Position numbers and translations under genes: made by a program. Below are positions 36,218 to 37,950 of a DNA stretch of 64,000 nt, piece after piece. Source of the stretch: Pseudoalteromonas piscicida (lineage in GTDB: Bacteria > Pseudomonadota > Gammaproteobacteria > Enterobacterales > Alteromonadaceae). Numbering within the stretch: the first letter of the stretch is position 1; each line of letters begins with the position of its first letter. The DNA lies in assembly GCF_002208135.1 (NCBI RefSeq), contig NZ_CP021646.1, positions 789,501-853,500 of the forward strand. The letters are read 5' to 3'. The notes under the pieces were generated by a model, which was not told the DNA's origin, searched no databases, and worked only from the letters and a program-made list of their open reading frames with translations.

Positions 36218-36310
36218 GGAGAGGTGGCCGAGTGGCCGAAGGCGCTCCCCTGCTAAGGGAGTATAGGGTTTGTAGCCCTATCGAGGGTTCGAATCCCTCC
36301 CTCTCCGCCA
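36218..36310 (+). tRNA. tRNA-Ser (GCU anticodon)
   Basis: 93 nt with encoded CCA. Acceptor GGAGAGG pairs with CCTCTCC, long variable arm as in class II tRNAs, anticodon loop CTGCTAA (GCT). Equivalent to E. coli serV. Confidence 0.95.
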
Positions 36311-36331
36311 TTTTTAATGGTTGTCTTGTAC

Positions 36332-36408
36332 GGACGCATAGCTCAGCTGGATAGAGTACCTGGCTACGAACCAGGCGGTCGGAGGTTCGAATCCTCCTGC
36401 GTCCGCCA
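36332..36408 (+). tRNA. tRNA-Arg (ACG anticodon), copy 1
   Basis: 77 nt with encoded CCA. Acceptor GGACGCA pairs with TGCGTCC; anticodon loop CTACGAA; T-loop GGTTCGAATCC. A34 would be edited to inosine to read CGN codons. Immediately after it the CCA forms part of a CCACTT/AAGTGG hairpin, perhaps a processing signal. Confidence 0.95.
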
Positions 36409-36442
36409 CTTTTCTTTAAGTGGTTAAATATAAAAGTAGGAA

Positions 36443-36490
36443 ACAGGAAGTCGAAGGTTCACCTTCACAAAATACGTCCTGCGTCCGCCA
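36443..36490 (+). repeat. tRNA-Arg 3'-half relic, unit 1
   Basis: Resembles the tRNA-Arg 3' half (AGTCGAAGGTTC ... CCTGCGTCCGCCA) with an insertion in the T-arm, followed by the same CTTTTC...AGTGG sequence that trails the real tRNAs. No 5' half exists, so it is not a functional tRNA. Similar relics follow copies 2 and 3. Confidence 0.75.
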
Positions 36491-36544
36491 CTTTTCTTTT
36501 TAGTGGTTAAAAATAAAGAAGTTGGAAAACTATACATTCATAAC

Positions 36545-36621
36545 GGACGCATAGCTCAGCTGGATAGAGTACCTGGCTACGAACCAGGCGGTCGGAGGTT
36601 CGAATCCTCCTGCGTCCGCCA
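36545..36621 (+). tRNA. tRNA-Arg (ACG anticodon), copy 2
   Basis: Identical to copy 1, 213 bp downstream of it. Trailed by a 3'-half relic at about 36657-36702. Confidence 0.95.
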
Positions 36622-36757
36622 CTTTTCTTTTAGTGGTTAAATAATAAAGGTAGGAAACAGGCGGTTGGAGGTTTACCTTCAAAAAATACGTCCTGCGTCC
36701 AGCACTTTTCTTTAAGTGATTAAATATAAAGAAGTTGGAAAACTATACATTCATAAC

Positions 36758-36834
36758 GGACGCATAGCTCAGCTGGATAGAGTACCTGGCTACGAACCAG
36801 GCGGTCGGAGGTTCGAATCCTCCTGCGTCCGCCA
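36758..36834 (+). tRNA. tRNA-Arg (ACG anticodon), copy 3
   Basis: Identical to copy 1, 213 bp downstream of copy 2. Trailed by a relic at about 36869-36917. Confidence 0.95.
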
Positions 36835-36971
36835 CTTCTCCTTAAGTGGTTAGATAATAAAGGTAGGAAACAGGAAGTCGGAGGTTCACCTTCACAAGAT
36901 ACGTCCTGCATCCGCCACTTCTTCTTAAGTGGTTAAATAATAAAGAAGTTGGAAAACTATACATTCATAAC

Positions 36972-37048
36972 GGACGCATAGCTCAGCTGGATAGAGTACC
37001 TGGCTACGAACCAGGCGGTCGGAGGTTCGAATCCTCCTGCGTCCGCCA
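36972..37048 (+). tRNA. tRNA-Arg (ACG anticodon), copy 4
   Basis: Identical to copy 1, 214 bp downstream of copy 3. It is the last tRNA; the terminator/relic array begins right behind it. Confidence 0.95.
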
Positions 37049-37074
37049 CTTTTCCTCAAGTGGTAAAATAAAGA

Positions 37075-37950
37075 GATAAACAAGCCGACGAAAGTCGGTT
37101 TTTTTGTGCCTAAACATCTCGTGTAGGAGCAGGTTTACCCTGCGATCTGTTACGAAAGTTGAATATGACGACGGTCGGAAGTTCACTCTCCACAATATAC
37201 GTCCTGCGTCCGACACTTTTCCTCAAGTGGTTAATAAATGAAGGTAAAAATAGGCGGGCGGAGGTTCACTATCCACAACACACGTCCTGCATCCACTACT
37301 TATCTCAAGTGGTAAAATAAAGAGATAAACAAGCCGACGGAAGTCGGTTTTTTTGTGCCTAAACATCTCATGTAGGAGCAGGTTTACCCTGCGAACTGTT
37401 ACGAAAGTTGAATATGACGACGGTCGGAAGTTCACTCTCCACAATACACGTCCTGCATCTACTACTTATCCTTGAGTGGTAAAATAAAGAGATAAACAAG
37501 CCGACGAAAGTCGGTTTTTTTGTGCCTAAACATCTCATGTAGGAGCAGGTTTACCCTGCGGTCTGTTACGAAAGTTGAATATGACGACGGTCGGAAGTTC
37601 ACTCTCCACAATACACGTCCTGCATCTACTACTTATCCATGAGAGGTAAAATAAAGAGATAAACAAGCCGACGAAAGTCGGTTTTTTTGTGCCTAAACAT
37701 CTCGTGTAGGAGCAGGTTTACCCTGCGATCTGTTACGAAAGTTGAATATGACGACGGTCGGAAGTTCACTCTCCACAATACACGTCCTGCATCTACTACT
37801 TATCCTTGAGTGGTAAAATAAAGAGATAAACAAGCCGACGGAAGTCGGTTTTTTTGTGCCTAAACATCTCGTGTAGGAGCAGGTTTACCCTGCGATATGT
37901 TACGAAAGTTGAGTACGTCGACGCTCGGAGGCTCACGACTGCATGATTAA
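37075..37950 (+). repeat. Tandem array of terminator/REP-like/tRNA-relic units
   Basis: Five units begin (GATAAACAAG) at 37075, 37324, 37491, 37658 and 37825. Units 2 to 5 are spaced exactly 167 bp; unit 1 is 249 bp because it carries an extra relic (about 37205-37290). Each unit holds CCGAC-GNRA-GTCGG followed by seven Ts, then a GTAGGAGC...GCGA palindrome, then GGTCGGAAGTTCACTCTCC and CGTCCTGC from a tRNA 3' half. The last unit diverges after about 37915. No gene is supported on either strand. Confidence 0.88.
37082..37105 (+). terminator. First intrinsic terminator of the tRNA operon (repeated four more times)
   Basis: CCGAC-GAAA-GTCGG stem-loop with a run of seven Ts, 34 bp behind the last tRNA-Arg. 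The same hairpin recurs at 37334, 37501, 37668 and 37835 (CCGAC starts); loops are GAAA or GGAA, both GNRA tetraloops. Confidence 0.85.

Follow-up and report, generated by a model that had tools for sequence, protein, structure and literature searches.

What are the repeated fragments of tRNA sequence that lie among and behind the tRNA-Arg genes of Pseudoalteromonas piscicida? In the window analyzed here, a stretch of 64,000 nucleotides from a genome of 5.3 Mb in two contigs, a tRNA-Ser/tRNA-Arg operon is interleaved with partial copies of the tRNA 3′ half, here called relics, and runs out into a tandem array of terminators and further relics. The initial annotation of this locus offered two readings, namely small RNAs released with the tRNAs and scars of repeated integration at the tRNA 3′ end. 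The sequence comparisons described below lead us to favor the former, in which the array would be a source of small RNAs.

Organization of the tRNA operon and the downstream array

ARAGORN bore out the tRNA-Ser(GCU) gene and the tRNA-Arg(ACG) genes; the latter, four in number and identical, are spaced at 213, 213, and 214 bp (Table 1). A single promoter (36176) precedes the tRNA-Ser gene and all four tRNA-Arg genes. Upstream of the operon lie a 60-codon ORF and ORFs identified by eye as prfB and lysS, and the array is followed on its 3′ side by an ORF at 38022 that by eye is NamZ/DUF1343-like.

The window holds eight relics and one truncated remnant. Each of the first three tRNA-Arg genes is followed by a 3′-half copy, as described previously; the description of these copies as only degenerate did not hold, since the relics share a derived core. 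Behind the last tRNA, five units had been proposed, four at a 167-bp period and every one composed of a terminator, a REP-like palindrome, and one relic. Four terminators do recur at an exact 167-bp period. The first unit measures 249 bp because two relics lie within it, 83 bp apart, and the relic of the fifth unit is truncated; the rest have the proposed composition. Terminator-like sites between 36000 and 38100, counted on both strands, numbered 11, compared with a mean of 2.5 (sd 1.4) in shuffled sequences. Arrays like this one are present in separately assembled genomes of the genus, which argues against an assembly artifact. The sequence TTTTTTTRTGCCT stands after each terminator (37099-37861), with five occurrences in the window against 0.02 expected, and also occurs in the array of the Leu(CAA) locus.

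The palindromes are imperfect, GTAG-led, dispersed GTAGGAGC-palindromes, as in REP/BIME elements, and a relaxed pattern allowing one mismatch found 44 places in the genome and none for the reversed control. The genome also carries two RAYT-type Y1_Tnp genes (PF01797 over cut-off). One of them lies amid REPs of another subtype (TGTAGCAGCGGG...; G000:C1:3095000-3100500). The palindrome is thus of the kind found in REP elements with RAYT, with the difference that here the REP has been duplicated along with the array unit. A REP-like site was present in 13 of the 63 genus operons read, and the REPs of the array look like hitch-hikers.

Table 1. Features of the tRNA-Ser/tRNA-Arg operon and its array (window coordinates)
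Feature	Position	Strand	Basis
Sigma-70-type promoter of the tRNA operon, TTGACA-16-TATTAT	36176..36203	+	11/12 consensus bases
tRNA-Ser(GCU)	36218..36310	+	ARAGORN; Rfam
tRNA-Arg(ACG) 1	36332..36408	+	ARAGORN
Inter-tRNA relic 1, 3′ half with core GGTTCACCTTCACAAAATACGTCC	36440..36490	+	Relic model; ends by eye
tRNA-Arg(ACG) 2	36545..36621	+	ARAGORN
Inter-tRNA relic 2	36660..36704	+	Relic model; ends by eye
tRNA-Arg(ACG) 3	36758..36834	+	ARAGORN
Inter-tRNA relic 3	36870..36917	+	Relic model; ends by eye
tRNA-Arg(ACG) 4	36972..37048	+	ARAGORN
Intrinsic terminator 1	37082..37105	+	Terminator scan
REP copy 1	37122..37145	+	REP pattern
Relic 4	37170..37215	+	Relic model; ends by eye
Relic 5 (extra copy in the first unit)	37250..37298	+	Relic model; ends by eye
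Intrinsic terminator 2	37331..37354	+	Terminator scan
REP copy 2	37371..37394	+	REP pattern
Relic 6	37419..37464	+	Relic model; ends by eye
Intrinsic terminator 3	37498..37521	+	Terminator scan
REP copy 3	37538..37561	+	REP pattern
Relic 7	37586..37631	+	Relic model; ends by eye
Intrinsic terminator 4	37665..37688	+	Terminator scan
REP copy 4	37705..37728	+	REP pattern
Relic 8	37753..37798	+	Relic model; ends by eye
Intrinsic terminator 5	37832..37855	+	Terminator scan
REP copy 5	37872..37895	+	REP pattern
Truncated last relic (GACGCTCGGAGGCTCACGACTGCA)	37920..37943	+	Read by eye; no relic-model match

Anatomy and conservation of the relics

Each relic consists, in order, of the pre-T-loop part of the tRNA (GGTCGGAGGTTC), a core of about 19 bases, the acceptor strand, and the trailer. 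The core (type: ACTCTTACAAGATACGTCC) stands in for the T-loop and the 3′ strand of the T-stem of the tRNA (GAATCCTCC). Relics were collected with a sequence-only model built from 27 of them, which gave 184 matches in the stretches read, 183 of them anchored on the core. Two of the anchored matches were normal tRNA 3′ halves (G006 and G495) and some others had diverged (e.g., G002); the single unanchored match (G458) was a partial relic.

These relics had been found by a model that contains the core, and we also searched without it, on the same fetched stretches. Allowing no more than one mismatch, we found 132 acceptor-like 10-mers outside called tRNAs in 50 genomes. Of these, 129 were preceded by the two halves of the core and 131 by one half or more, compared with 3 of 3,916 control positions; the sole copy with neither half was a normal tRNA-Arg 3′ half. 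At two mismatches, both halves were present in 29 of 54 copies. Identity in the 3′ part of the core was 0.795, against 0.381 further upstream. Stretches L150 and L154, which repeat L041 and L056, were left out of this search and of the promoter tallies given below.

The core of about 19 nt is more conserved than the spacers, the fourfold sites of lysS, and the tRNA-derived flanks. Between species, core identity was 0.859 and 0.772, and that of its GGTTC was 0.973 (181 of the 183 relics, the two with tRNA sequence being omitted; 54 genomes). In the same relics, the flanks reached 0.686 and 0.715 and the spacers 0.300 and 0.304, and fourfold sites of lysS had a mean identity of 0.53 (51 genomes, 1,275 pairs). 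The tRNA does not contain this core, whose conservation therefore cannot be explained by conversion with the tRNA. The acceptor ends of the relics track the nearest tRNA, with a mean mismatch of 1.32 compared with 2.52 after permutation (180 relics, 53 genomes; minimum of 2,000 permutations, 1.89), a comparison in which phylogeny is not controlled. The genus-type core GGUUCACUCUUA (36456-37790) resembles the 3′ end of 16S rRNA, which we take to be GGAUCACCUCCUUA, and could pair with AAGAGU; this resemblance may be due to chance.

The anatomy bears directly on the idea that the relics are remains of elements inserted at the 3′ end of a tRNA gene. Integration at tRNA 3′ halves is common, but the relics retain the pre-T-loop part and have a single altered T-loop in common. 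Searches of viral contigs with two exact core patterns gave 0 matches, the array had no phage match at E ≤ 1e-5, and neither an element nor an integrase or att core was found at the relics; by eye, the only integrase among the ORFs was an XerD-like one 6 kb upstream. The earlier suggestion of repeated integration is therefore unsupported, and we regard such an origin as extremely unlikely.

Distribution in the genus and copy number

The relic array is not confined to this genome and is widespread in the genus. At E ≤ 0.001, the relic model had a match in 102 of the 108 genomes of the genus. In 79 of them the match was at E < 1e-8, stronger than that of the bare tRNAs tested (at most 30.3 bits in 16 stretches); 23 had weaker matches and six had none. 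A strict pattern limited to the 25-base form of the core was present in at least 26 of the 108 genus genomes and at least 1 of 394, both being lower bounds, as the pattern misses G268 and G390, which the relic model finds. The exact core pattern also occurs in a P. flavipulchra record. Outside the genus, coverage comprised the strict core pattern, stretches of eight genomes of other families, and two E. coli loci.

We read the locus in 69 genus genomes (G025 being excluded from the genus tallies), and in 63 the tRNA-Ser and tRNA-Arg genes lay on one stretch. Relics, one to nine each, were present in 53 of these 63 operons; because the genomes were picked largely for having matches, this fraction is not a prevalence, to which 79 of 108 is nearer. 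A relic followed a terminator in 41 of the 63 operons, with two or more such units in 27 (e.g., G455 and G469). In 26 a relic stood directly before a tRNA gene with no terminator called between them, and in 24 a terminator preceded a tRNA gene inside the operon. Regular arrays had periods of 123-200 bp, and irregular steps reached 576 bp. Ten of the 63 operons were relic-free, including some from fragmented genomes and that of G013, which has a relic on another contig. Relic-free genomes in one or two contigs (G001, G017, G479, G493, and G497) indicate that the array is dispensable. In G494, this operon has 11 tRNA-Arg(ACG) genes and no relics.

A change of copy number among related genomes, proposed earlier as a check, was apparent: relatives whose lysS is 95.8-96.6% identical across 1,074 bases carried 8, 8, 6, 5, and 3 relics, compared with 8 here.

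The same pattern at other tRNA loci

We scanned 27 other tRNA stretches of this genome with the 3′-terminal 16 bases of each tRNA, allowing up to two mismatches, and found 3′-end copies at the Leu(CAA), Val(TAC), Val(GAC), Asp, and fMet loci. At the Leu(CAA) locus (G000:C1:2994000-2995400), five relics alternate with terminators at a 130-bp period. Such relics were present in 23 of the 30 genus Leu(CAA) loci read, and their alignment showed a different conserved insert.

A similar T-loop replacement recurs in the relics of fMet operons. Among the best 30 genus fMet loci, 22 carried relics, 41 in total, and GGTTC[AG]CTCTTCATAAA occupied the place of the Arg core in 20 of the 41. At 9 of 12 positions the fMet consensus has the same base as the consensus of 161 Arg cores, and the identity between the fMet and Arg cores (0.563; permuted mean, 0.297) was reached by 1 of 5,000 column permutations.

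Other operons of this genome showed further arrangements. The fMet operon (G000:C1:208300-210000) ends in a relic whose T-loop replacement is of the Arg type and has two 5′-half copies between its fMet genes. By eye, eight Lys(TTT) genes at 230-bp spacing and five Gly(GCC) genes are interleaved with 5′-half rather than 3′-half tRNA copies, and six Glu(TTC) genes at 237-bp spacing have no tRNA copy. The Val(TAC), Asp, and Val(GAC) operons contain pseudogene-like tRNA copies.

Tandem duplication and unequal crossing-over might by themselves leave partial copies that are homogenized and drift without function. Such a neutral by-product would be expected to vary in copy number among close relatives, to have acceptor ends that track the nearest tRNA, and to be missing from some operons, all of which is seen here. 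It would not be expected to carry a core that is foreign to the tRNA and yet surpasses fourfold sites, spacers, and flanks in conservation, or to show a matching motif in the fMet relics, and we consider this account unlikely.

Predicted expression of the array

A promoter-like site (at least 9 of 12 consensus positions) was present upstream of the tRNA-Ser gene in all 64 genus genomes scored, stretch L065 being excluded from the promoter tallies. By the same consensus scan, none of 96 terminator-to-relic spacers contained such a site (41 genomes; shuffled, 3.7%), so RNAs from the relics behind terminators would need terminator read-through. Among terminator-to-tRNA spacers, 1 of 24 had one (24 genomes; shuffled, 14%), and read-through is thus the simplest way to express the tRNA genes behind terminators. 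It is likely to be normal in genomes with a tRNA gene in that position. As these spacers score above shuffled sequences on average (7.29 vs. 5.72), weak internal promoters are possible.

The terminators could also be read as a serial fail-safe that keeps transcription from the very strong tRNA promoter out of the NamZ-like gene (38022), with the relic serving as a landing site for an RNase that removes read-through transcripts. Such a role would leave the conserved sequence of the core unexplained, and terminators placed before a tRNA gene within the operon, like relics directly before a tRNA gene with no terminator called between, do not suit it. It would account for the repeated alternation of terminators and relics in 27 of the 63 operons, for the same alternation in the Leu(CAA) operon, and for the tRNA-like 3′ end in which every relic terminates. 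We think this function quite unlikely.

RNA structure and target searches

RNAalifold predicted no consensus structure for the Arg relics. A T-arm-like helix in these relics was kept in 91.9% of cells with no two-sided change, and the Leu(CAA) relics gave 11 pairs, also with no two-sided change. Conserved RNA structure was therefore dropped as a candidate, the helices tested by name in the Arg and Leu relics being without two-sided change. Single folds of four stretches had z-scores of -3.16, -1.17, -2.79, and -1.74, and the terminator and trailer hairpins made up most of the folding in the unit stretches.

At the gathering score, Rfam identified nothing besides tRNA between 30000 and 45000. 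Weak sub-threshold matches, some to Hfq-associated sRNA families (best E, 0.02), were taken as chance. The covariance model of RtT RNA, which we take to be Rfam RF00391, had no match at E ≤ 10 in 36300-38000.

A conserved core with no predicted consensus structure and in many tandem copies might act as a sponge that titrates another small RNA, as 3′ETS-leuZ reportedly does for RyhB in E. coli. A search of 12 genomes for the complement of the core (wobble-tolerant, at most two mismatches), which cannot test shorter seeds, speaks against this: it returned only the opposite strand of the relics themselves and scattered matches, and no complementary target was conserved across the 12 genomes, one of which (G048) belongs to another genus and had no match. 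The sponge is a special case of the explanation that we prefer, with which its likelihood overlaps, and we give it a rather small chance.

Comparison with E. coli repeats

Copies of tRNA 3′ ends are known in E. coli as tRNA-linked repeats (TLRs; Rudd 1999, as cited in PMC8144298). In the passages of that article that treat them, TLRs are dated to a first description in 1978 and number 22 at ten E. coli loci, most of them without known function; as stated there, a function is known for none but three rRNA copies (PMC8144298). These copies, rrA, rrB, and rrF, are each bounded by a pair of terminators, arise by read-through, and bind both Hfq and CsrA (PMC8144298). The passages further name 3′ETS-leuZ as the first functional bacterial tRNA fragment and report that the tyrT phenotype as first described was later retracted, and the title of a reference listed there gives the tyrT repeats as 178 bp repeated 3.14 times (PMC8144298). 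By likening the array to the tyrT repeats, the initial annotation had chosen the right class, going by the same passages (PMC8144298).

The architecture of the array agrees with that of E. coli TLRs; its sequence does not, and the tests run gave no homology. In both organisms, tRNA 3′-end repeats lie in and behind tRNA operons at several loci per genome, with one to five per E. coli locus, and the relics lie where TLRs do, downstream of the gene within an operon for tRNA or rRNA. In E. coli, serV-argVYZQ is the operon with the same content; it has three TLR-kind copies of the tRNA 3′ end, and tyrTV has four; rttR is annotated in NC_000913.3. The last 18-19 bp of the E. coli copies are the same as the 3′ end of the tRNA, and their interior is another one, whereas here tRNA-like sequence stands on both sides of a different core. 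The E. coli copies match a 19-mer with zero or one mismatch. Relic 1 has 14 bp (TCCTGCGTCCGCCA) up to CCA, and its identity to the tRNA continues past CCA into the trailer. Because this falls short of the 18-19 bp rule as worded, we filed the array as TLR-like rather than as TLR.

Like rrA, rrB, and rrF, the relics of the array lie between two intrinsic terminators and, by consensus scan, have no promoter of their own, and their expression is predicted to depend on read-through. The three E. coli copies differ in lying behind 5S rRNA, one per operon, whereas the relics lie behind tRNA in up to nine copies. The tyrT repeats are likewise tandem, each holding a tRNA 3′ end, but the array has no RtT match at E ≤ 10. 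The relic model matched only tRNAs in the two E. coli loci (those of L167, and nothing in L168). The earlier proposal of an independently evolved system fits these results.

Giroux and Cedergren reportedly described a Photobacterium tRNA cluster. We found no account of such arrays in Pseudoalteromonas in the open-licence literature. A study of Csr RNAs in P. fuliginea includes CsrA RIP-seq reads, and its main text does not contain the term "tRNA" (PMC11882849).

A proposed mechanism

On balance, we judge it somewhat probable that the array is the Pseudoalteromonas counterpart of E. coli TLRs, yielding short read-through RNAs with a selected core and a regulatory role. One promoter would drive the tRNA-Ser and tRNA-Arg genes, and some polymerases would pass terminator 1 and copy the array, in which a unit comprises a spacer, a tRNA 3′-half relic with a remodeled T-arm, a trailer, and a terminator. 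Each later terminator would stop a share of them, giving short RNAs, estimated at 80-170 nt, that end in a relic and a terminator. Their output would be in step with tRNA synthesis, and the terminators, together with nucleases that act on the tRNA-like 3′ end, would probably set their ends. The core of about 19 nt would be the selected part, most likely as an RNA element with a pairing or binding partner. The near-identical units would recombine unequally, which would change the copy number and copy the local tRNA acceptor end into the relics.

A wider version, which we put forward only tentatively, is that relics throughout the genome might form a family of read-through small RNAs whose T-loop has been replaced by a shared GGUUCRCUCUU...AA as the business end. 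The rate of tRNA synthesis would then be turned into regulatory output, and copy number would set the dose.

The conserved new motif in the relics suggests small-RNA production. The relics provide a second TLR-like set, with a conserved core, varying copy number, and naturally relic-free species, and thus a comparative system for testing function. If the proposed mechanism is true, read-through of strong tRNA operons would be a source of small RNAs.
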